A DNA stretch of 64,000 bases, taken from contig JAIPBM010000012.1 in NCBI GenBank assembly GCA_021739695.1, forward strand, positions 1 to 64,000, given 5' to 3'. Source of the stretch: Flavobacteriales bacterium (lineage in GTDB: Bacteria > Bacteroidota > Bacteroidia > UBA10329). This document shows positions 285 through 41,076 of the stretch, one piece after another. The position numbers and the translations under genes are program-made. The stretch's first letter is position 1, and each line of letters starts with the position of its first letter. The notes under the pieces were generated by a model, which was given only the letters and a program-made list of their open reading frames with translations, had not been told where the DNA came from and searched no databases.

Positions 285-1205
285 ATGCACCGCCTCTGGC
301 ATATCCTACTGTTTCTCCTTCCGATGATTTCGCTTGGGCAGAATTTGGTGGTGAACGGAAGTTTTGAATACATTGATACTTGCGCTTTGGATTTTGGTGA
401 TGTATCAATTGCTGAGGAATGGCACAACCTATATGATACAGGAGAATCTATGGCAGACTTGTTCAATGAATGCTCTGACCTTGATTATCTGTCTGTTCCG
501 GACAATATTGGTGGAACGCAATACGCGACTTCAGGTGTCGGGTATTCTGGCTTTATTCCGTTTGGGATTACGGAGGGAATTCTAGGAACGCTGAGGGAAA
601 ACCTTTTGAGAGATAGCTTGTATTATGTTTCTTTTAGCATTTCCCTAGCCGACCACTCTAAAAATGCTGTGCGAAATATTGGTCTGGTCTTTTTGGATTC
701 GGTTGTCATATTGAATCCCGACAGCTTTTACACGGTCGTTCCAGACTTGGTTGAATTCGATTGGATTACGGACAAGGTAAATTGGCAACGTGTGGATACC
801 GTGTACAAGGCTGGTGGATATGAGGAATATTTAGGGATTGCATACTTTCCGAACGAAAATATACATGAAACAATACCCGTTCAAGGAGGAGTTAGCAACA
901 GCACATATTATTACGTTGATGATGTAACTGTCATACCTTACAGTGTTTGGCTTGGAGTAAATGACCCTAAATTCAATTTCTCTATTTACCCCAACCCCGC
1001 CACTTCCAACATCACCATCCAAAGCAAAACACCGCTTCCGCAGCTTTGGCTAAGTGATATGGCTGGTCGCGTGGTTTTACCTACCCTTCGGCTGCGCTCA
1101 GGGTACGCCAATATTGATGTCAGTGCATTGCCCAGCGGCATCTATCTCGTTGAGGCCATCACCGAAGACGGCCAGCGCTCGGTGCAGAAGGTGGTGGTGG
1201 AGTAA
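285..1205 (+). CDS. Secreted protein with T9SS type A C-terminal sorting domain
   Basis: 306 residues. An N-terminal signal peptide (MHRLWHILLFLLPMISLGQ) is followed by NLVVNGSFE, the opening of a carbohydrate-binding-like beta-sandwich seen in many Bacteroidota surface proteins. The last ~75 residues are a T9SS sorting domain: FSIYPNPATSNITI, then LWLSDMAGRVV, then DVSALPSGIYLVE and a final VQKVVVE. The protein should pass the inner membrane by Sec and the outer membrane by T9SS, and be released or anchored on the surface. No catalytic motif is visible, so binding or structure is the likely role. Oddity: the loop PTLRLRSGYA inside the sorting domain is encoded by a palindromic repeat (1082-1105) that has entered the gene without breaking the frame. 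The first ATG is used because the signal peptide starts there. Confidence 0.85.
   Translation: MHRLWHILLFLLPMISLGQNLVVNGSFEYIDTCALDFGDVSIAEEWHNLYDTGESMADLFNECSDLDYLSVPDNIGGTQYATSGVGYSGFIPFGITEGILGTLRENLLRDSLYYVSFSISLADHSKNAVRNIGLVFLDSVVILNPDSFYTVVPDLVEFDWITDKVNWQRVDTVYKAGGYEEYLGIAYFPNENIHETIPVQGGVSNSTYYYVDDVTVIPYSVWLGVNDPKFNFSIYPNPATSNITIQSKTPLPQLWLSDMAGRVVLPTLRLRSGYANIDVSALPSGIYLVEAITEDGQRSVQKVVVE
1082..1105. repeat. REP-like palindrome read in frame inside a T9SS domain
   Basis: TACCCT at 1082-1087 pairs with AGGGTA at 1100-1105 around a GC-rich centre (TCGGCTGCGCTC). Its ends match the larger palindrome at 203-251. It encodes residues TLRLRSGY between two predicted beta-strands of the sorting domain. 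Confidence 0.6.
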
Positions 1206-1288
1206 AGGTTTGTCTCCATTACATTTTTCCTTTTCTCTTTCCCCCACATTGACCCAGATACATGCTCATGCGATCTAGCTGGATCTTT

Positions 1289-1519
1289 TGCTTAACGAGC
1301 TGACTGCCAAGCGGGATTAGCAGGGAGTGAAGCGTTCTGTACCGTACCTCAAGCGTTCTCAGCCGTACCCCAAGCCTAACGAGCCGTAGGTCAAGCGTAC
1401 CTAGTAGGGAATGATCTGTGCAGAGTTGTTCTCTAAGCATACCGAGCCGTATCCAAAGCAGACTTAGCCGTTCCTTTCCGCTCTCGTGCCATACCTGAAG
1501 CGTACCGAGCCGGGATTTT
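1289..1519. repeat. Degenerate 21-bp tandem array, 11 units
   Basis: Eleven consecutive 21-base units start at 1289, 1310, 1331, 1352, 1373, 1394, 1415, 1436, 1457, 1478 and 1499 with no change of spacing. The consensus begins AGCGTACCGAG and ends CCGTACCTCA. Units at 1331, 1352, 1373 and 1436 match about 17 of 21 positions; the weakest match about 10. AGC recurs every 10-11 bases, so the pattern keeps helical phase (21 bp is two turns). The frame is not conserved as protein: stop codons occur in all plus-strand frames. Upstream and downstream units fade into unique sequence. Confidence 0.75.
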
Positions 1520-1851
1520 GCGGGAAGCAGCAGGCGTTTCTAAGCAAAAAAATTGGCTGTCCGGAAGGAATATATGGCCAACCAAAGCATCTGCCTGTTC
1601 GGTAAGACCACCAAAATGGCCAGCGAAATGCACTGAAGCCCCGAAAAGACCATTGGTTAAAGGAAAAAGCCTCCCCAAAACTTCAGATCGGCTTTCTAAA
1701 ACTCCGCTCAGAGTAGTTTAATACTAGGCTAAATTCACTTCGCGCAAGTTCAGAAACGGGGTATTGCAGCCAAGCTCTGCAACCGTAATTATAAAAACCT
1801 CTCTGTGTAATACTCGCTACACGTCTTCCGTTCATGGCACACTATTCGCTC

Positions 1852-1859
1852 TACCTTCG
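1852..1859 (+). promoter_or_regulatory. Possible -7 box of the TonB-C-like gene
   Basis: TACCTTCG differs from TAnnTTTG at one base and lies 14 bases before the ATG at 1874, the usual spacing for this group. TAnnTTCG-like variants also precede several other genes in the window (near 32949, 49940 and 54816). Confidence 0.35.
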
Positions 1860-1873
1860 AAAAAAATCCAATC

Positions 1874-2410
1874 ATGACACGTTATCTCATCGCCATTCTT
1901 GCTTTTACCTTTTACCTAATACCTAACTCCTTTTCACAGCACACCGTCATCCTAAAAGATGGCTCGCAGAAAAAGGGCGAAGTGAAATCCATCTCTGGCC
2001 CAACACTTACCTTTTACACGAATGGCCGTCCGCTTGACCTGCTTATTTCGGATGTACGAACCATTCATTTCTATGATGAGGAAGCAAAAAGTGCTGCTCC
2101 TGCCGCTAGCAATCGAAAGGAGTTCAAGAATGGTTTCGACAAGATCGAATATGTGATGGAAGGCCGCACCATGACCAAGTTCCCGAAGATCGGACTCGGA
2201 ACCAAGGACAACGGAGTGGTGGTGGTTGATGTGACCATCGATAAATACGGAAACGTGCTAAGTGCCGACCCAGGAGCACCCGGTTCAAAGACCACAGACG
2301 ATAAATACCTGTTCGTAAAAGCACAGGCTGCGTGTCAACAAGCGAAATTCGACAACGACCCGACCGCACCGCTTTCTACCAAGGGGCAGATCTTCGTTAT
2401 TTTTCCGTAG
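1874..2410 (+). CDS. Secreted protein with TonB C-terminal-like domain
   Basis: 178 residues. The signal peptide is MTRYLIAILAFTFYLIPNSFSQ. Residues ~23-70 (HTVILKDGSQKKGEVKSISG...) form a small beta-rich module of the kind that begins with a residue-modification-like KDG turn. Residues ~95-178 resemble the TonB C-terminal fold: KFPKIGLGTKDNGVVVVDVT, then IDKYGNVLSADPGAPGS, then KAQAACQQAKFDNDP. There is no N-terminal transmembrane anchor or Pro-rich spacer as in true TonB, so after cleavage the protein is free in the periplasm or outside. It may bind an outer-membrane protein or peptidoglycan, as other stand-alone TonB-C domains are thought to do. No enzyme motif is seen. It lies alone, between the tandem array and a palindromic repeat. 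Confidence 0.8.
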   Translation: MTRYLIAILAFTFYLIPNSFSQHTVILKDGSQKKGEVKSISGPTLTFYTNGRPLDLLISDVRTIHFYDEEAKSAAPAASNRKEFKNGFDKIEYVMEGRTMTKFPKIGLGTKDNGVVVVDVTIDKYGNVLSADPGAPGSKTTDDKYLFVKAQAACQQAKFDNDPTAPLSTKGQIFVIFP

Positions 2411-2502: not shown

Positions 2503-2560
2503 TCACTAAGGGAATATGGATAATCCATAACTTATGCATCCACTAGAAAAACCGAACACA

Positions 2561-5500
2561 ATGAGGTTATTCCTTATCGCCCTATTGGCAATTTTTACCG
2601 TGAATACGCAAGCCCAGAACTACGGAGGTTGGTGGCAGGAAGTAGATCAGTTTACCCACGATGGCCGCCCGAAATCGGCTTTGGAAGTGGTGCAGAAGAT
2701 CCACGACCAAGCGGTGAAGGATGGCAACGGTCCGCAGTTGGTGAAGGCCGTCATCCATGAGGTCAAATTCCAAGCAGATTTTGAGGAGGAAAGTCTGGTG
2801 GCGAGCATCATCCGACTGGAAGATGAGGCCAAAGCCGCACCCGAACCCACCAAGCAGATCCTGCATTCGCTGCTGGCCGAAATGCATTGGGGATATTATC
2901 AGAACAACAGTTGGCAGATCCTCAATCGCACCGCTACCGAAGAGGCTGGCGACAATATTCTCACCTGGGATTTCAAGCGCTTGGCGCAAGAGGCCGACAC
3001 GCATTATCAGCTTTCGTTGGAGAACCCAGAAGTGCTGAAAACTGCGGCTTTGAAGGATTATGAAGCGATCCTGACGGGTGCCGATACCTACCGCAATCTG
3101 CGCCCGAGCCTCTATCATCTCTTGCTATCGCGAGCGCATGATTTCTACGGTTCGGAAGAGCGCGACCTCATCAATTTCGATGCTTCGGGCGTTTATGACG
3201 ATACACTGCTTTTGGGTTCGGTCGATGAGTTCCTTTCGTGGGAAGCGCCCACAAAAGCAGGCGTTCAGCCCGCTCTTTTCTCCATTCAATTGTATCAGAA
3301 CTTGCTTCGCGAAGCAAAAAACTTGGGCAACGAAGCCTTGGTTTCGGAAGACCTGAAACGGCTGAATTTCATCTACGGTCGTTCGCAGGCGCAATCGGCT
3401 CACAAGCGCTATGCACAGAATCTGCGTTCGCTTTTGAAGAAGTACGAGAATGATGCGGTTGCTGGCGAAGTGGCCTACTACATCGCTTCGCTTCTCCACG
3501 ACCAAGGCAATGCTTCCACCGACCCGAACCACGAAGCGCGTTGGAACTGGAAAACGGCCGATTCGCTCTGTCTGGTTTATGTCAAGAAATTCCCGAATAC
3601 GCTGGGCGCGAGGAATTGCCAGTCGCTTTCGGAGCGCATCCGCATGAGGGAATGGGGCATGGATGCCGAAGGCGCGGTGCTGCCCGAAAAGCCGTTCCGT
3701 TTCCTTTTCAATTATCGGAATGCCGGGAAAGCTGAGGAACAGAAATGGGCGGTCCACGTTCGGGTAGCCAAACTCGACCCGATTGAATACCGAGAAAATG
3801 CACGTCAGAATTATGGCGAAAAACTGGTGAATTGGCTCAAATCGAACAGCCAGACGGTAAGCGAAAAGACCTTCAATGTTCCGAATCCGGGCGATTTCCG
3901 TCAGCACAGCATCGAACTTCCTTTAGAGAAACTGCCCATCGGCACCTACGTGGTTTTTGTAGGTTCCGACCCAAAATTTTCTACCAATGCCGAAGTGGTG
4001 GCTTACAGCATCATCACGGTCACAGACATCGCCCTCATCAAGCGCAGCGAAAACCAAGATGGAACGCTGCTGAAAGTGGTTTCTCGCGATACGGGAAAAC
4101 CCATCGCCAATGCCAAAATTGAACTCCTCAGCTTGGTTTATGATCGAAAGAACCGCAGCAACAACTACGTGCTGGAACAGACCCTGACCACCGATGCCAA
4201 AGGCGAGGCCATGTGGAAAGGCCAAAGTCAGGATTACCGCGGATTGATGGTGGATGTGTACAACGGAGAAGACAAATTGATCGGTGCCGATAATGTCTAT
4301 GGCTACCGCAATCAGGAGGACATCCGCTGGAACGATCAGACGAATTTCTTCCTCGACCGTGCCATTTATCGCCCCGGTCAGACCATCCACTTTAAGGGCA
4401 TCATCCTTTCGAGCAATGGTTCGGAAGTGAAAACGCTGATTGATAAGAACACTACTGTTCAACTCTTCGATGCCAACGGACAGGAAGTGAGTAAATTGAA
4501 CCTGAAAACGAATGCATTCGGCACGTTTTCCGGAACCTTCATTGCCCCAACAGGCGGATTGAACGGCTACATCCGTATCGGCAACGAAAGTGGTTCACAT
4601 TCCTTCCGAATGGAGGAGTACAAACGGCCTAAGTTTGAGGTGAAGGTCGATCAACCGAAGGAACAATTCCGCGTGAATGACACCGTGATGGTGGCAGGAA
4701 CAGCCATGTCGTATTCGGGTGTTCCGTTGGATGGCGCAGAAGTGAAATATCGCGTCACGCGAACCGCTCGCTTCCCATATCCATGGCGCTGTTGGGGTTG
4801 GTTTCCGCAATCGCAGCCCAAGCAAGTGGCTTTCGGAACGGCAACTGCCGATGCTTCGGGCGTATTCCAAATTCAGTTCATCGCGCAGCCAGACCCACTC
4901 ATCAAAGCTGATTATGGGCCTGTTTTCAGTTATCAGATTGAGGCAGATGTGACCGACCAAAGTGGCGAAATGCAAACTGGAACGACCAGCGTTTCGGTGG
5001 GCTATCATTCGCTCAACATCGACATTGACCTACCAGCTGTCATTGAGCGTTATGAGCTTGGGCGATACAAGGTTTCGGCCACCAATCTGTCTGGCGAACC
5101 GCAGGCAGCTGATGTTTCGGTCGATGTCTGGAAATTGAAGCCGAACGAGCGCATTTTGCGCGATCGGATGTGGCAGACGCCCGATCAGTTTTACCTCTCG
5201 GAGGCAGAACATAAACAGCTTTTCCGCAATGAGCCCTACAAGAATGAAGGTGATTACCAAACTTGGGAAAAGGACAAGAGCATGTTCCATGCGGTACTGA
5301 AGACCGAGAAGGACAAGGACGTGAGTTTTGCTCCGCTCAACGCCCTCGGACAAGGCTATTACATGGTAGAACTGACTGCGAAAGACGCCTTCGGAACAGA
5401 GGTCGTTCAGAAAGCTTATTACTGCCTGACGGAGGCCGATGCGAAGCTGCCGCCCTACTACACCACCGCTTGGTTCCATGCGCTCAAGGATAATTACGAA

Positions 5501-8500
5501 CCAGGCGAAACAGCGGAAATTCTGGTTGGTTCTTCTTATGCGTTCGTTGAATTTCTGATTGAAGTGGAGATCAAAGACAAGGGATACAACACGAACAAGT
5601 TGGTCTATTCCAAGGAGATATCCTGCACAGGAACGCAGCAGAAGATCAGCATTCCGGTGACGGAAGATTGGCGCGGAAATGCCCAGATTCACGTAACGGC
5701 TGTTCGGAACAACGAACTATTGAGTTGGTCAAAGACCATTTCTGTTCCCTACACCAACAAGCAATTGGACGTTAAACTCGAAACCTTCCGGAAGGAAATG
5801 GCGCCTGACGATGCCGAAGAATGGACATTGAAAATCACCGACAAGAATGGTCAGCCAGCGAAAGCTGAGTTGCTAGCAACCATGTACGATGCTTCCTTGG
5901 ATGTGTTGGCGGCCAACAATTGGAGATTGAACCCTTTCCGCTTCATGAACCCGCGTTTCAACTGGGAAAGCAGTTCCTTCCAACGTGCCCAAACCCAACT
6001 GTGGAACCAGAATTGGCTGAAGTACCCGAGTTCGGACATCCAACGAAGTTTTGAGGAGATCAACTGGTTTGGTTACTATTTCGGAAACCGTTATCGCTAC
6101 GATCGCTTGGAATCAGTTTCTATTCGTGGAGGAGCAAGAACCCGAAATGCAGCCATGGCGGTGGAGGCGGATGGAATGGCAGAAGAATCGATCATGCTGG
6201 ATGAGGTTCAGATGAAGACAGGAGCTGCGCCAGCTCAATTCGGTGACGCTTCCGGTGGTCTCATGTCTAAAAATGCTGAGGATAATGCCAGTGCAGAACC
6301 TCCAGCCGATATCAAAATGCGCTCGGATTTCAGCGAAACGGTATTCTTCCATCCGCATCTTGAGACGGACAAGCAAGGCAATACCAGCTTCAAATTCAAC
6401 GCACCCCAATCGCTTACGCGATGGAAATTCATGGGCTTGGCAACGACTGAGGATTTGAAAATCGGCACCATTACGGAAGAGGTCGTCACACGCAAGCAAC
6501 TAATGATCACGCCTAATTATCCGCGTTTCGTGCGAGAAGGTGATAAGTTGGTTTTTCAGGTAAAAGTGAACGTTTTGGATTCTACGGTTTCAAACGCCAA
6601 GGCTTCCCTTGAATTAAAAGATGCGCTTACGGATAAGGTACTCGCTTTGAACCTTGAACCGCGAACCTTGAACTTTGCCAATGGCTCTGCCTTGGCGAAT
6701 TGGGAAATCAACGTTCCAGAAGACCTCGCAGCATTGAAATTCACAACAAAAGCGTGGTCAGAGAAACACTCTGATGGCGAGGAAAAGACGATTCCAGTAC
6801 TCTCCAATCGCATGTTGGTGACGGAAGCCATGCCGCTTCCTGTCCGTGGAAAAGGCACACACACATTCACGTTTGATAAGCTGAAAAACAACACTTCTTC
6901 ATCGCTACGAAATCATTCACTTACACTCGAATTCACACCAAACCCGATCTGGCTGGCGGTGCTTTCGCTGCCTTACATGATGGAATATCCGTATGAGTGC
7001 TCCGAGCAGATCTTCAGTCGCTATTATTCAAATGCGATCGGTACGTATCTGGCCAATTCTGACCCTGCCATAAAGCGTGTGTTCGACCAATGGAAAAGTG
7101 CGGCTCAGAACAAGGAAGGTGATGCGTTCCTGTCTGAATTGGAGAAAAACCCAGAGTTGAAACAAGCCTTACTGACCGAAACGCCTTGGGTGCGTGATGC
7201 GCAGAACGAGACGGAACAGCGAAGACGAATTTCAGAGCTTTTCGATACCGACCGTATGGAATCGGAATTGGCAATCGCACTCAAAAAACTGAAGCAGAAC
7301 CAAAAAGCTGATGGTGGCTGGGGCTGGTTCAACGGCATGGAATCGGACATGTACATCACGCGATACATCGTTTCGGGTTTCGGGAAAATGCGCAAAATGG
7401 GCGTTTGGAAAATCGATGCCGAAACACAAGGCATGCTCGAACGCGCCATCGAATTCCTTGACGAGGAAATGGTGGAATACTACGACCGCAGAGCGCTGAA
7501 AGAAAAGGATTACGTGCCAAGTTGGACCGACCTCCACATGACCTACGCACGGTCGTTCTGGTTGGACGATTTCAAACTGAAAGGCAAGCCGCAAACCACT
7601 TACAATCTCATCTTGAAACTCATCCGCGACAAATGGACGAAACTGGATGCTTCACAGAAAGGATTGGCCGCTGTCATCCTGAACCGCTCAGGATTTGAGA
7701 CTGACGCGAAAAAGGTGATTGCCTCGCTTCGTGAAACGGCTCTTCATAGCGAAGAATTCGGCACCTATTGGGCCATGGACAAAGGCTACTATTGGCATCA
7801 GGCTCCGATTGAAAATCACGTGATGATCTTGGAGGCTTTCCACGAAGTAACGCAAGATGCCGACATGGTTTCGGAGATGAATATTTGGCTACTGAAGCAG
7901 AAACAAACCCAAAGTTGGGAAACCACGAAAGCGACTGCTGAAGTATGCTATGCACTACTCTCAACAGGAAATACCAACTTCGATACGGAAGCGATGGTTT
8001 CCATCAAACTCGGTAACGAAACCATCGACCCACGAACGGACAAAGACCTGAAAACCGAAGCAGGAACAGGCTATTTCAAAACCAATTGGAAGAAGGGTTC
8101 CATCACGCCCGACATGGGAAATGTAACTGTGACTAAGGACAACGAAGGCGTGGCTTGGGGCGCGGTTTACTGGCAGTATTTCGAGGACTTGGATAAGATC
8201 ACAGGCGTGACAGACAATCCGATCAAAATGAAGCGCGAAGTGATGCTTCTGCAAGACACGGAGAATGGTCCGTTGATGAAAAAGCTGGATGCCAACACAT
8301 CGCTTTCGGTTGGAGATAAAGTTCGGGTGAAGATCACGCTCGAAACCGACCGTCACATGGAATACGTACATCTGAAAGACATGCGAGCCGCCAGTTTTGA
8401 ACCACGAAAACAACTTTCAGGCGCAGAACATCAGGAAGGTTTGAGCTATTACCGCTCAACCACCGATGTGGCCATGAATTTCTTCTTCGGCTATTTACCC

Positions 8501-8641
8501 AAAGGCACGTTCGTGTTCGAATACGACCTGAACGTAACGCAAGCAGGAACATTCAGCAATGGCATCTCGCAACTGCAATGCATGTATGCGCCTGAGTTTA
8601 CTACTCACTCGGAAGGGGTTCGGCTAGAAATCGGACGTTAA
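2561..8641 (+). CDS. Alpha-2-macroglobulin family protein with thioester motif
   Basis: 2026 residues from the ATG at 2561, chosen because MRLFLIALLAIFTVNTQAQ is a clean signal peptide; an in-frame ATG at 2534 would add nine polar residues. Order: helical N-terminal repeat region (~20-350), carboxypeptidase-regulatory-like strand set (RDTGKPIANAKIELL, ~505-530), MG2 domain (DRAIYRPGQTIHFKG, ~600), further MG domains, a TonB-plug-like insert (~1185-1240), the A2M domain (FSETVFFHPHLETDKQG ... PQSLTRWKFMG, ~1258-1300), then the thioester region. The thioester residues are C1480 and Q1483 in YPYECSEQ, inside the alpha-alpha barrel (ADGGWGWFNGM). Bacterial members trap proteases that reach the periplasm or surface by covalent thioester attack. 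Unlike Escherichia coli ECAM it has no lipobox, so it is soluble, and no PbpC gene is adjacent. It ends tail-to-tail with the thiolase gene, sharing TTAA. Confidence 0.9.
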   Translation: MRLFLIALLAIFTVNTQAQNYGGWWQEVDQFTHDGRPKSALEVVQKIHDQAVKDGNGPQLVKAVIHEVKFQADFEEESLVASIIRLEDEAKAAPEPTKQILHSLLAEMHWGYYQNNSWQILNRTATEEAGDNILTWDFKRLAQEADTHYQLSLENPEVLKTAALKDYEAILTGADTYRNLRPSLYHLLLSRAHDFYGSEERDLINFDASGVYDDTLLLGSVDEFLSWEAPTKAGVQPALFSIQLYQNLLREAKNLGNEALVSEDLKRLNFIYGRSQAQSAHKRYAQNLRSLLKKYENDAVAGEVAYYIASLLHDQGNASTDPNHEARWNWKTADSLCLVYVKKFPNTLGARNCQSLSERIRMREWGMDAEGAVLPEKPFRFLFNYRNAGKAEEQKWAVHVRVAKLDPIEYRENARQNYGEKLVNWLKSNSQTVSEKTFNVPNPGDFRQHSIELPLEKLPIGTYVVFVGSDPKFSTNAEVVAYSIITVTDIALIKRSENQDGTLLKVVSRDTGKPIANAKIELLSLVYDRKNRSNNYVLEQTLTTDAKGEAMWKGQSQDYRGLMVDVYNGEDKLIGADNVYGYRNQEDIRWNDQTNFFLDRAIYRPGQTIHFKGIILSSNGSEVKTLIDKNTTVQLFDANGQEVSKLNLKTNAFGTFSGTFIAPTGGLNGYIRIGNESGSHSFRMEEYKRPKFEVKVDQPKEQFRVNDTVMVAGTAMSYSGVPLDGAEVKYRVTRTARFPYPWRCWGWFPQSQPKQVAFGTATADASGVFQIQFIAQPDPLIKADYGPVFSYQIEADVTDQSGEMQTGTTSVSVGYHSLNIDIDLPAVIERYELGRYKVSATNLSGEPQAADVSVDVWKLKPNERILRDRMWQTPDQFYLSEAEHKQLFRNEPYKNEGDYQTWEKDKSMFHAVLKTEKDKDVSFAPLNALGQGYYMVELTAKDAFGTEVVQKAYYCLTEADAKLPPYYTTAWFHALKDNYEPGETAEILVGSSYAFVEFLIEVEIKDKGYNTNKLVYSKEISCTGTQQKISIPVTEDWRGNAQIHVTAVRNNELLSWSKTISVPYTNKQLDVKLETFRKEMAPDDAEEWTLKITDKNGQPAKAELLATMYDASLDVLAANNWRLNPFRFMNPRFNWESSSFQRAQTQLWNQNWLKYPSSDIQRSFEEINWFGYYFGNRYRYDRLESVSIRGGARTRNAAMAVEADGMAEESIMLDEVQMKTGAAPAQFGDASGGLMSKNAEDNASAEPPADIKMRSDFSETVFFHPHLETDKQGNTSFKFNAPQSLTRWKFMGLATTEDLKIGTITEEVVTRKQLMITPNYPRFVREGDKLVFQVKVNVLDSTVSNAKASLELKDALTDKVLALNLEPRTLNFANGSALANWEINVPEDLAALKFTTKAWSEKHSDGEEKTIPVLSNRMLVTEAMPLPVRGKGTHTFTFDKLKNNTSSSLRNHSLTLEFTPNPIWLAVLSLPYMMEYPYECSEQIFSRYYSNAIGTYLANSDPAIKRVFDQWKSAAQNKEGDAFLSELEKNPELKQALLTETPWVRDAQNETEQRRRISELFDTDRMESELAIALKKLKQNQKADGGWGWFNGMESDMYITRYIVSGFGKMRKMGVWKIDAETQGMLERAIEFLDEEMVEYYDRRALKEKDYVPSWTDLHMTYARSFWLDDFKLKGKPQTTYNLILKLIRDKWTKLDASQKGLAAVILNRSGFETDAKKVIASLRETALHSEEFGTYWAMDKGYYWHQAPIENHVMILEAFHEVTQDADMVSEMNIWLLKQKQTQSWETTKATAEVCYALLSTGNTNFDTEAMVSIKLGNETIDPRTDKDLKTEAGTGYFKTNWKKGSITPDMGNVTVTKDNEGVAWGAVYWQYFEDLDKITGVTDNPIKMKREVMLLQDTENGPLMKKLDANTSLSVGDKVRVKITLETDRHMEYVHLKDMRAASFEPRKQLSGAEHQEGLSYYRSTTDVAMNFFFGYLPKGTFVFEYDLNVTQAGTFSNGISQLQCMYAPEFTTHSEGVRLEIGR
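6113..6280 (+). other. TonB-plug-like segment inside the macroglobulin
   Basis: These bases encode residues ~1185-1240 of the alpha-2-macroglobulin. The segment opens SVSIRGGARTRN and closes GAAPAQFGDASGGLMSK. In TonB-dependent receptors the plug carries a V.IRGG box near its middle and an A.FGDA.GG box near its end, in the same order. Here only those two boxes remain, about 40 residues apart, joined by an acidic, Met-rich stretch. The segment lies immediately before the A2M domain, where macroglobulins carry the protease bait. Confidence 0.6.
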
Positions 8642-38139: not shown

Positions 38140-41076
38140 TTAATATCGCATAACGCTGATAGGCGATGAATCGCTTGCATTACCATTCATGATCTGAACG
38201 ATGTAATAACCTTCGGCCATATTAACCATGTTCACCACATAAGGTATCTGCTCATACTGTTTAATGAACACTAACCGACCTGAAGTATCCATAATGCGGA
38301 TCTCAGCATCTGTTTCGGCAAACTTTCCTGTATTGATAGCGAACATTCCGTTGCTCGGATTCGGATAGAGCATAAAACCTAGATCATTGGACTCCTCTTG
38401 CTCAGATGAGAGTCCCTCACCTACCTGACAGGTTTGAATCTCTGTCCAATCTATATTGACACAGAAGTCGAGGTGGTCAAACACCTGGCCCGCAGAATTT
38501 GCCAAAATTTCGTACGTGTTTGTAACAGGAACCCCTGGAATGTTGACGAAAATCGTGTAAGTCGTATCGCTACTTGGCACAAAAGAGAATTCGTACTCAC
38601 CATTCGTGTTAGTTGACACTCTTCCCTGTGCCTGACCTGGTGGGGTCTTCTCCACAACTACATCAATGAGCGGAATAGGGTCTTCTTCAGTCTCCGTTTT
38701 TCCACTCGGATCGTACCATAACGTTCCTGAAAGTGTATTTGAACCATTGAATAGCATCGGCTCAATCATTGCTATATCCTTCACAAAATCGTTTCCACAC
38801 ATATTGAATACCGCAGCATTGTTCCAATCGTACTCGGCTGGATAGTAAGTCTCTACGCTCATTGGGTAGAAAGCATCATTAGGGTTGGCCATTAGGACAA
38901 AAGCTTGGAAATTGTCTACTTGACCAAAGTCGTAATATCCGACAACATCCGTCATCACCGAATCGATCGGACTCCAAACCCCTGGATTGACCGCGTCATA
39001 TTCGTACATGAACGCCCAACACTCTATGCATGGAAGGTTGCCCATTGTCAGAGTTCCTTGCAACGAACTTGACGTTGAACTAACGGTAATCATATCTGAA
39101 GCATTGCAACCATTGAAATCCGTGACCGTTACTACATACTGAGCTTCTACAGAACTTTCGGTCGGTGTCAATACAGCAGATGTCACGTTGATTACGTTCA
39201 AATCTGGAGATGCTGTCCAATCAGAAGTAAAAGGACCTGTTCCGCCAGAGATTACCACATCCAATTGGGTGGAACCGTTGCTAGGACAAAGGCTAATATT
39301 GGCTCCAGATGAGAAATTCACCGCAAGAATGTCTGGTTCACCGATCACTACAGGAACCATTATGGTGCAACCGTGATCATCAGTGACGCTTACCGTGTAG
39401 GAACCAGCGGAAAGTCCAGAGAAGTTACCATCGTTCTGTGGTCCAGAACCGATATCGAACATGTAAGGTGATGTTCCTCCAGAGGCACTTACCGAGGCTG
39501 AACCCGTTGAGTTGCCATTGCAATCTGCATCTGAACTGGCATCCAGCGATGCTGAAAGAGCTGATGGTTCACCGATCACCACAGGAACCGTTGTAGTGCA
39601 ACCGTGATCATCCACAATCGTCACCGTGTAAGAACCAGCAGAAAGGCCAGAGAAGTTGCCATCGGCCTGCGGTCCATTGCCAATATCGAAAGTGTAAGGC
39701 GATGTTCCGCCAGAGGCACTTACCGAGGCTGAACCGGTTAAGTTGCCATTGCAATCTGCATCTGAACTGGCATCCACCGATGCTGAAAGAATTAGCGGCT
39801 CATTGACGGTAAAACCGATTACGTTCTGGCAAGCGTTCGCGTCTGTAATGGTTAAAAAATAGTCACCGGCTGTAAGTCCAACGAAATTTCCGCTTGGCTG
39901 AGAGCCCAAACCAATATCGTAAGAGTAAGGAGCCGTTCCACCAGTACCAACAAGTACGACTGAACCTGTTGCATTGCCGTTACAATCGACATCGGAGTAA
40001 GAATCAACGGATGCTGAAAGGAGCGATGGTTCATTTATGGTAAATCCAACCGTAGTCTGGCAGCCGTGATCGTCCTTCACAATTACGCTGTAGTTAGCGG
40101 CCGGAAGACCAGCAAAAAAACCGCTTGATTGTGGGCCGGATCCTAGGTCATATGTATAAGGAAAAGTTCCGCCCGATGCAGTTATGGTCACAGAACCAGT
40201 TAACGTTCCGGTACATACCACATGGGTAAGTTCATCAATGGAACCTTCAATGGCCGATGGTTCTCCAATAGTAAATGGCACAGTGGCCTCACAGCCGCTT
40301 GAATTTTTCGCCACAATGACATAATCGCCTGCTGACAATCCACTAAAAAAGTTACTTGCCTGTTCACCGTTTCCAATATCAAACGTATATGGTCCTGAAC
40401 CGCCAGAAGTGCTTATCGAAACCGATCCGGTTGCATCTCCCTCACAATCGGGCATTGTGATGGTATTGACAGATGCGGAAAACACGGATGGCTCACCTAC
40501 GGTAATGGTATTGGTCGTAACGTCAGAACAACCGAAATCATCCGAAATCATAACATAATAGTCATCCGGACAGAGATCAACAGCTGTCGCTGTCTCTTGA
40601 GCATTCGCATCGCTCCAAATAAAATTGTAGAAACCTGCGTTGGGCCCAGAAACTGAAACGGTTGTCTGCCCATCGCAATTTCCGGCACAGGTAGCATCTA
40701 AGGCCGACAGGTTATACGATGGCTGTCCTAGAACAACAATGACCCTCTTGGCAACCATTTGTGTACACAGAATTGAGGCCACTGTCAATTTCATGATGTA
40801 CGTTCCGGGGGTGGTATAGGCATACTGCGTCAATGGAATCTGCAATCCATCAACAACGTTACTTCCGTCACCGAAATCCCAAGTTCTAAGAGAAATTAGT
40901 CCTTCTAACAAGGATTCGTCTTCAAACTGAAGCGTCATATTGGAGCAGATGAAAATGGTATCATTGCTCTCTCCCAGTTGACCAAGGACAGCCAATTCAG
41001 CTTGGCATTGTGCAAAGGCATTTAAGGTTGGGATGCTTAATAATAGAATGAACAATAGACTTCTCGCTTGTTTCAT
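38140..41076 (-). CDS. Large T9SS surface protein with seven SprB-type repeats
   Basis: 978 residues. Signal peptide MKQARSLLFILLLSIPTLNA; a PKD-like domain (~30-110, RTWDFGDGSNVVDG); then seven repeats of about 77 residues (~110-640), each opening G/N-E-P-S..SAS, carrying D-C-x-G, GGTSPYTFDIG, GLSAGSYTVT and closing DDHGC. These are SprB repeats, first known from the gliding adhesin SprB of Flavobacterium johnsoniae. A spaced region with a Greek-key-like segment (EKTPPGQAQGRVSTNTNGEY) and a T9SS type A sorting domain (FMLYPNPSNGMFAINTG; EGYYIVQIMNGN) follow. It should be exported by T9SS and act as a surface filament or adhesin. Repeats five and six are nearly identical. The -7 signal upstream is not clear. 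Confidence 0.92.
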   Translation of the reverse strand: MKQARSLLFILLLSIPTLNAFAQCQAELAVLGQLGESNDTIFICSNMTLQFEDESLLEGLISLRTWDFGDGSNVVDGLQIPLTQYAYTTPGTYIMKLTVASILCTQMVAKRVIVVLGQPSYNLSALDATCAGNCDGQTTVSVSGPNAGFYNFIWSDANAQETATAVDLCPDDYYVMISDDFGCSDVTTNTITVGEPSVFSASVNTITMPDCEGDATGSVSISTSGGSGPYTFDIGNGEQASNFFSGLSAGDYVIVAKNSSGCEATVPFTIGEPSAIEGSIDELTHVVCTGTLTGSVTITASGGTFPYTYDLGSGPQSSGFFAGLPAANYSVIVKDDHGCQTTVGFTINEPSLLSASVDSYSDVDCNGNATGSVVLVGTGGTAPYSYDIGLGSQPSGNFVGLTAGDYFLTITDANACQNVIGFTVNEPLILSASVDASSDADCNGNLTGSASVSASGGTSPYTFDIGNGPQADGNFSGLSAGSYTVTIVDDHGCTTTVPVVIGEPSALSASLDASSDADCNGNSTGSASVSASGGTSPYMFDIGSGPQNDGNFSGLSAGSYTVSVTDDHGCTIMVPVVIGEPDILAVNFSSGANISLCPSNGSTQLDVVISGGTGPFTSDWTASPDLNVINVTSAVLTPTESSVEAQYVVTVTDFNGCNASDMITVSSTSSSLQGTLTMGNLPCIECWAFMYEYDAVNPGVWSPIDSVMTDVVGYYDFGQVDNFQAFVLMANPNDAFYPMSVETYYPAEYDWNNAAVFNMCGNDFVKDIAMIEPMLFNGSNTLSGTLWYDPSGKTETEEDPIPLIDVVVEKTPPGQAQGRVSTNTNGEYEFSFVPSSDTTYTIFVNIPGVPVTNTYEILANSAGQVFDHLDFCVNIDWTEIQTCQVGEGLSSEQEESNDLGFMLYPNPSNGMFAINTGKFAETDAEIRIMDTSGRLVFIKQYEQIPYVVNMVNMAEGYYIVQIMNGNASDSSPISVMRY
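39335..39796 (-). repeat. Two near-identical 231-bp units inside the SprB-repeat gene
   Basis: Bases 39335-39565 and 39566-39796 form a direct duplication with a period of exactly 231 bases (77 codons). They share long identical runs (for example GAGGCACTTACCGAGGCTGA at 39482 and 39713). They encode repeats six and five. The other repeats in the gene are more diverged. Confidence 0.75.

Follow-up and report, generated by a model that had tools for sequence, protein, structure and literature searches.

A 21-bp helically phased tandem array in a Flavobacteriales genome and a probable class of operator arrays upstream of HTH genes in Bacteroidota

Introduction

Cro/C1-type autoregulators usually control their own genes from operators that lie upstream of them. 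Those such as SinR, DdrO and the C proteins of restriction-modification systems use one to a few operators, most of which are palindromic. In single-protein partition systems, for example pSK1 Par, an HTH protein is encoded beside a repeat array; these systems are plasmid-borne and serve in partition. Theta-replicating plasmids such as R6K, pPS10, RK2 and P1 carry iterons, arrays of 17-22 bp direct repeats that adjoin the gene for their binding protein, Rep (PMC4980987). Rep binds iterons cooperatively, and displacement by half a helical turn abolishes the cooperativity (PMC4980987). BldC of Streptomyces is a small HTH-type protein that binds direct repeats, which vary in number, in a head-to-tail arrangement (PMC5859096).

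This study concerns a 21-bp tandem array in the window, meaning the whole 64,000-nucleotide stretch of Flavobacteriales DNA that was analysed, and the arrays of the same period found upstream of HTH_26 genes elsewhere in the Bacteroidota. The latter resemble iterons in being direct-repeat arrays of two-turn period beside the gene of a presumed binder. They differ from iterons in being chromosomal, in having 6-16 units whose core varies by locus, and in their partner, which is a Cro/C1-type HTH_26 protein where the iteron Rep is a winged-helix protein; no origin or replication gene was seen here. BldC, in turn, is MerR-like and controls a regulon, and 21-bp phase-locked arrays linked to the protein's own gene at each locus are outside its description (PMC5859096). 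By analogy, the HTH_26 arrays may work like iterons and BldC while belonging to neither family. They share with the Cro/C1 autoregulators the same fold, as judged by Pfam HTH_26 and structure comparison, but have about 11 sites, mostly non-palindromic, at an exact period of 21. As with pSK1 Par, the HTH gene adjoins a repeat array, although pSK1 Par is plasmid-borne.

Results

The array in the window

The array and its best-matching part are as follows.

1268..1519, + strand: 21-bp tandem array of 12 units; period exactly 21; consensus AGCGTACCGAGCCGTACCTGA; non-palindromic
1331..1393, + strand: three best-matching units, contiguous, each with 16 of 21 consensus matches

The period-21 array is real. 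Autocorrelation of 1289-1519 gave a lag-21 identity of 0.49 (103 of 210 positions), and dinucleotide-preserving shuffles of the same segment gave 52 +/- 6.3 matches, with none of 5000 reaching 103. The highest identity that 1000 shuffles produced at any lag from 8 to 59 was 0.385. The period that an earlier note on this DNA had proposed to check against shuffled sequence was thus unmatched by chance, and no other stretch of the window comes close to it (106-107 matches for this array, 80 or fewer elsewhere). That note had described eleven units without a phase slip. The exact phase stands, since offset 0 is the best consensus match for every unit and the phase is gone at 1520, but the count is twelve, starting at 1268. 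Consensus matches per unit (of 21) are 10, 11, 11, 16, 16, 16, 14, 10, 17, 14, 13 and 15, in agreement with the range of 10-17 reported before. The half-unit rhythm of AGC every 10-11 bases was not borne out: the 15 AGC triplets in 1289-1519 all lie at phase 0 or phase 9 (mod 21), which gives alternating spacings of 9 and 12. Identity is no more than 0.30 at lag 10 and 0.29 at lag 11, and a repeat of half-unit length is not significant (p 0.17).

The unit is not palindromic (p 0.69), which it shares with the HTH-linked arrays and which sets it apart from most others. With its period of 21 it falls among direct repeats of 17-22 bp in helical phase, as iterons do. It also has these features of the class described below: six or more units, exact 21-bp phase, non-coding sequence, a unit of the mostly non-palindromic kind and flat identity. 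Near-identical repeats with unique spacers, as in a CRISPR, were not seen; the units are 21 bp in all and degenerate throughout. A search of 1000-2000 against Rfam gave no family at the gathering threshold. Tandem Repeats Finder called only 1330-1375, two of the twelve units.

Units far apart are as alike as neighbours: identity is 0.49, 0.48, 0.51, 0.53 and 0.53 at unit distances 1 to 5, and lags 42 (0.48) and 63 (0.51) are as strong as lag 21. Such a flat profile does not resemble that of a young tandem duplication; it resembles that of a set of sites kept close to a common consensus. Under neutral decay, the absence of indels would have a probability of 0.007 at one indel per 20 substitutions and 0.14 at one per 50, an estimate that depends on the assumed indel rate.

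A unit of 21 bases is also 3 x 7, and partial open frames exist on the minus strand (1219-1440 and 1433-1678), so the array might be a decayed gene for a protein with seven-residue repeats. We regard this as very improbable: no single frame spans the array, as had been noted earlier, other arrays of this kind are also broken in frame (open fraction 0.36-0.65 at L008, L155, L074 and L116), and the division into core and linker described below ignores codons. Intrinsic bending, which had been offered as a second use of the helical phase, found no footing either. Phased A-tracts are absent (the 252 bp contain two T4 runs), and the 10.5-bp AA/TT signal lies at the 72nd percentile of window segments.

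The locus in the window and in genus-mates

The array lies between two conserved flanks near the start of the contig.

285..1205, + strand: secreted protein with Por_Secre_tail (type IX secretion sorting domain), upstream flank
1207..1788, no strand: array-holding segment, bounded by a conserved flank on either side; in genus-mate G008 (L050) its place is taken by 116 unrelated bp
1520..1788, no strand: about 270 bp past the array, the slot of the HTH gene in HTH modules elsewhere; no intact gene
1789..1873, + strand: conserved stretch ahead of the next gene, which can be aligned in G008, genus-mate G004 and others; the array is outside it
1874..2410, + strand: 178-aa secreted protein, downstream flank, conserved in the genus, no Pfam match
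2534..8641, + strand: alpha-2-macroglobulin-family protein, context

Three other repeats were seen in the window: two 48-bp tandem copies at 109-207, near the contig start; a stretch of CCTGAGCCTGTCGAAGGG at about 210-245 that resembles part of a dispersed repeat; and two copies of a 231-bp tandem repeat (87% matches) at 39334-39790, probably a protein-domain repeat.

G008 shares both flanks at 81-82% DNA identity (1113-1206 and 1789-1882) and has 116 bp in place of 1207-1788. Conservation of the array between shared flanks, on which the earlier note had staked its reading, therefore does not hold at this locus. The window copy is either dispensable or recently gained or lost, which does not make the class meaningless. 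The segment that G008 lacks is 582 bp, about the size of a whole array and HTH module. In G004 the same downstream gene is preceded by a different array plus an HTH_26-family gene.

No HTH gene or remnant was found in 1520-1873 by Pfam or by the family HMM, so the window array lacks the HTH_26 gene directly downstream that marks the class, and likewise the adjacent Cro/C1-type gene expected of a Cro/C1 operator. A candidate remnant after the array, suggested by reading LREAAGVSKQKNWLSGR at 1518, was dropped after giving no Pfam match up to E 1 and no family-HMM hits. In view of the array and HTH gene that G004 has at this position, the array in the window has probably been orphaned, its HTH gene having decayed or been deleted.

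It is possible that the orphan still serves a partner elsewhere. No DNA homologous to it was found in 59 relatives, and its unit matched no other array beyond chance (best p 0.02 of about 55). The earlier note had also proposed a search for the unit elsewhere in its own genome; no copy above chance appeared in the roughly 30% scanned. None of the other arrays found shares the window unit, and hence no trans-acting partner was found.

Arrays upstream of HTH_26 genes

Homologs of the HTH_26 family, Cro/C1-type proteins that are 105-125 residues long and in some cases have two HTH domains, were gathered from the genus, the class and the phylum. The 33 loci of this family come from 12 Bacteroidota families, of which three belong to other classes of the phylum. 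A period-21 array (z>=7) lies directly upstream at 31 of the 33, and at each of these no period in the range 15-27 scores better than 21; the remaining two show period 21 at z 6.5 and 6.9. Among control loci of the HTH_3 family from the same class, one of 30 has a period-21 array, and unrelated control loci have arrays in two of 43 cases (one of period 21, one of period 24). The difference between HTH_26 loci and controls has a Fisher p of about 2e-14, for loci that are not fully independent (e.g. L198/L199 and L200/L201). Weak or false HTH_26 matches (L211-L214), a degraded locus (L188/L191) and an HTH_26 gene on a virus contig have no array. In the HTH-linked arrays the median number of units is 11, and the median distance from array end to start codon is 59 bp.

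The HTH protein of G004 is predicted to fold like lambda-repressor-type domains, with an rmsd of about 2 A over 63-66 residues, in a low-confidence model (mean pLDDT 64). Look-ups of function for the gene families in NCBIfam, PADLOC, phages, plasmids and IMG/VR returned nothing useful.

A second, unnamed family of about 235-260 aa has a C-terminal RWVN..D..KSGPWS motif and no Pfam match. Period-21 arrays, mostly palindromic, lie upstream at 15 of its 16 loci (L173-L178, L260-L275). Its proteins may be DNA binders of another type, or its genes may be targets.

The short distance to the start codon would also suit a transcribed 5' leader of 21-nt repeats bound as RNA by the encoded protein or a regulator, and the palindromic units of the second family could form hairpins. 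We give such an RNA leader only a slim chance. The linked family has a Cro/C1-type DNA-binding fold, only three of the 31 HTH-linked arrays are palindromic, a period locked at 21 bp comes naturally to duplex DNA, and Rfam has no match at the window.

The layout, helically phased repeats beside the gene of their presumed binder, is that of iteron plasmids (PMC4980987) and of single-protein partition systems. The arrays might then nucleate a large protein complex for partition, replication control or nucleoid organisation and have no part in regulating the adjoining gene. This seems rather improbable for arrays that are chromosomal, occur several to a genome and differ in their units. The HTH family had no match among 72,556 plasmid and 50,697 phage records, no Rep-like gene was seen beside the arrays examined, where the linked protein is HTH_26, and no NTPase or Rep partner was seen adjoining the HTH modules.

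Conservation of core and linker

What is kept within a unit can be seen in three close relatives (L198, L218 and L220), each with 14 units and with the core CAATTAAYA in nearly every unit at exactly 21 bp. Units were compared in the register of the core; gaps that free global alignment placed inside the arrays came in pairs and were spurious. In the pair L198/L218, core identity is 0.84 between corresponding units and 0.85 between non-corresponding ones, while linker identity is 0.59 and 0.39. Across all three relatives the cores range over 0.84-0.91 (corresponding) and 0.83-0.85 (non-corresponding), and the linkers, with 69-89 substitutions in 168 positions, over 0.47-0.59 and 0.34-0.39. The higher similarity of corresponding linkers indicates that ancestry shows in the linkers, while cores and spacing stay. 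The earlier view that spacing and not sequence is kept therefore holds for the spacing only: in these relatives a core of 8-9 bp is kept as well, and only the 12-bp linker is free. A near-identical pair, L200/L201, differs by one whole unit.

Array similarity also follows the similarity of the adjoining HTH protein. It stands at z 4.2 for proteins above 70% identity, 1.5 at 50-70% and about 0.1-0.4 below that, with a Mantel p of 0.006 (0.02 with one genus left out). Gene and array are inherited together, so that this correlation supports co-evolution without proving it, and linked inheritance could give part of it.

Other period-21 arrays in the genome and genus

A scan of 1.25 Mb, about 30% of the genome, found at least 12 further non-coding arrays of period 21, 42 or 63, the periods that dominate among non-coding arrays there, and each has an unrelated unit. 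The genus-mates G004 and G008 also carry such arrays, and none turned up in 200 kb from a distant genome in the same class. Two arrays on the window's contig and one in the orthologous G004 slot lie directly ahead of HTH genes; many arrays of this genus adjoin other genes. Two (L117, L177) are fresh, at 0.8-0.9 identity, and others are old.

Palindromic units occur in three of 31 HTH-linked arrays (at the p 0.05 level), four of six second-family arrays and nine of 14 unlinked arrays. A palindromic unit common to all arrays was thereby ruled out, the HTH-linked arrays being mostly direct, and the same test failed the idea that double-HTH proteins go with direct arrays and single-HTH proteins with palindromic ones.

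Some individual arrays are of interest in themselves. On contig C3 of the same genome (L109:7242-7535) an array inverts midway, about eight units of GGTATTTC being followed in phase by about six of GAAATACC; this segment and L109:4130-4738 together hold three different period-21/42/63 arrays within 3.4 kb. At L116:5229-5500 a period-21 array precedes the gene for a fusion of a divergent C5 DNA methyltransferase with a MerR-type HTH domain. The period-21 array at L074:5103-5303 is strongly palindromic (AAACATAGNNANCTATGTTTA) and immediately precedes the gene of another HTH protein, whose tail resembles a coiled coil.

A mutational process specific to these genomes, tandem duplication in 21-bp steps, could also account for the arrays, which would then be functionless minisatellites that decay by point mutation. 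In its favour, their sequences are unrelated, their ages run from fresh to old, higher-order periods of 42 and 63 occur among them, and they lie at many intergenic places in the genus. The gain or loss of a whole unit between L200 and L201 and the bare G008 locus would fit this too. We consider it unlikely, for it leaves unexplained why arrays sit directly upstream of nearly every HTH_26 locus in 12 families and not of HTH_3 genes, why cores are kept at consensus while linkers diverge, and why identity is flat with unit distance.

Discussion

The class of arrays, their exact period and their link to HTH genes are direct observations, and so is the finding, in one group of relatives, that core and spacing have stayed while the linkers diverged. 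From the sequences we infer that the HTH protein binds its own array, that it does so cooperatively, and that it regulates its own gene. Our preferred reading, which we think probably right though with appreciable doubt, is that these are phase-locked operator arrays, a class on Bacteroidota chromosomes in which 6-16 binding sites spaced 21 bp apart lie upstream of a cognate HTH gene and serve its autoregulation, and of which the window copy would be an orphan.

Each unit would then consist of a short core read by the HTH protein and a free linker. Since 21 bp are two turns of B-DNA, all cores would face the same side of the helix, and small Cro/C1-type proteins at 6-16 sites could touch their neighbours, giving a cooperative complex, steeply dependent on dose, by the start of their own gene. 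The array would most likely be an autoregulatory multi-operator that switches sharply with the dose of its protein. As a core drifted together with its protein, each locus would come to have its own sequence at a constant period. The repeated binding on one helix face put forward in the earlier note fits well with the position of such arrays, just ahead of Cro/C1-type HTH genes throughout the phylum, and with unit sequences that track HTH sequence; its interpretation as a whole is partly supported. HTH binding is not the whole story, given the arrays beside other genes and the unrelated family that also has them.

More tentatively, and with rather less than even confidence, the arrays may be parts of a phylum-wide module, in which a stand-alone gene (for a Cro/C1-type HTH protein or the unnamed 240-aa protein) is preceded by about 11 sites private to its locus at an invariant 21-bp period. 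Many mutually independent pairs of protein and array would coexist and spread in one genome, and the period itself, not a sequence, would be the shared trait. Repeat and motif finders based on identity would miss such a class because only the period is shared. No description of such arrays was found in the literature searched, mostly outside subscription journals and preprints; we mean by this that none was found, and not that none exists.

If the preferred reading, that of autoregulatory operator arrays, is true, the DNA target of an HTH protein of this family would be predictable from the array ahead of its gene. The dozens of natural pairs of protein and site would be a ready data set for the evolution of helix-turn-helix specificity, and the modules would be a source of independent multi-site switches.
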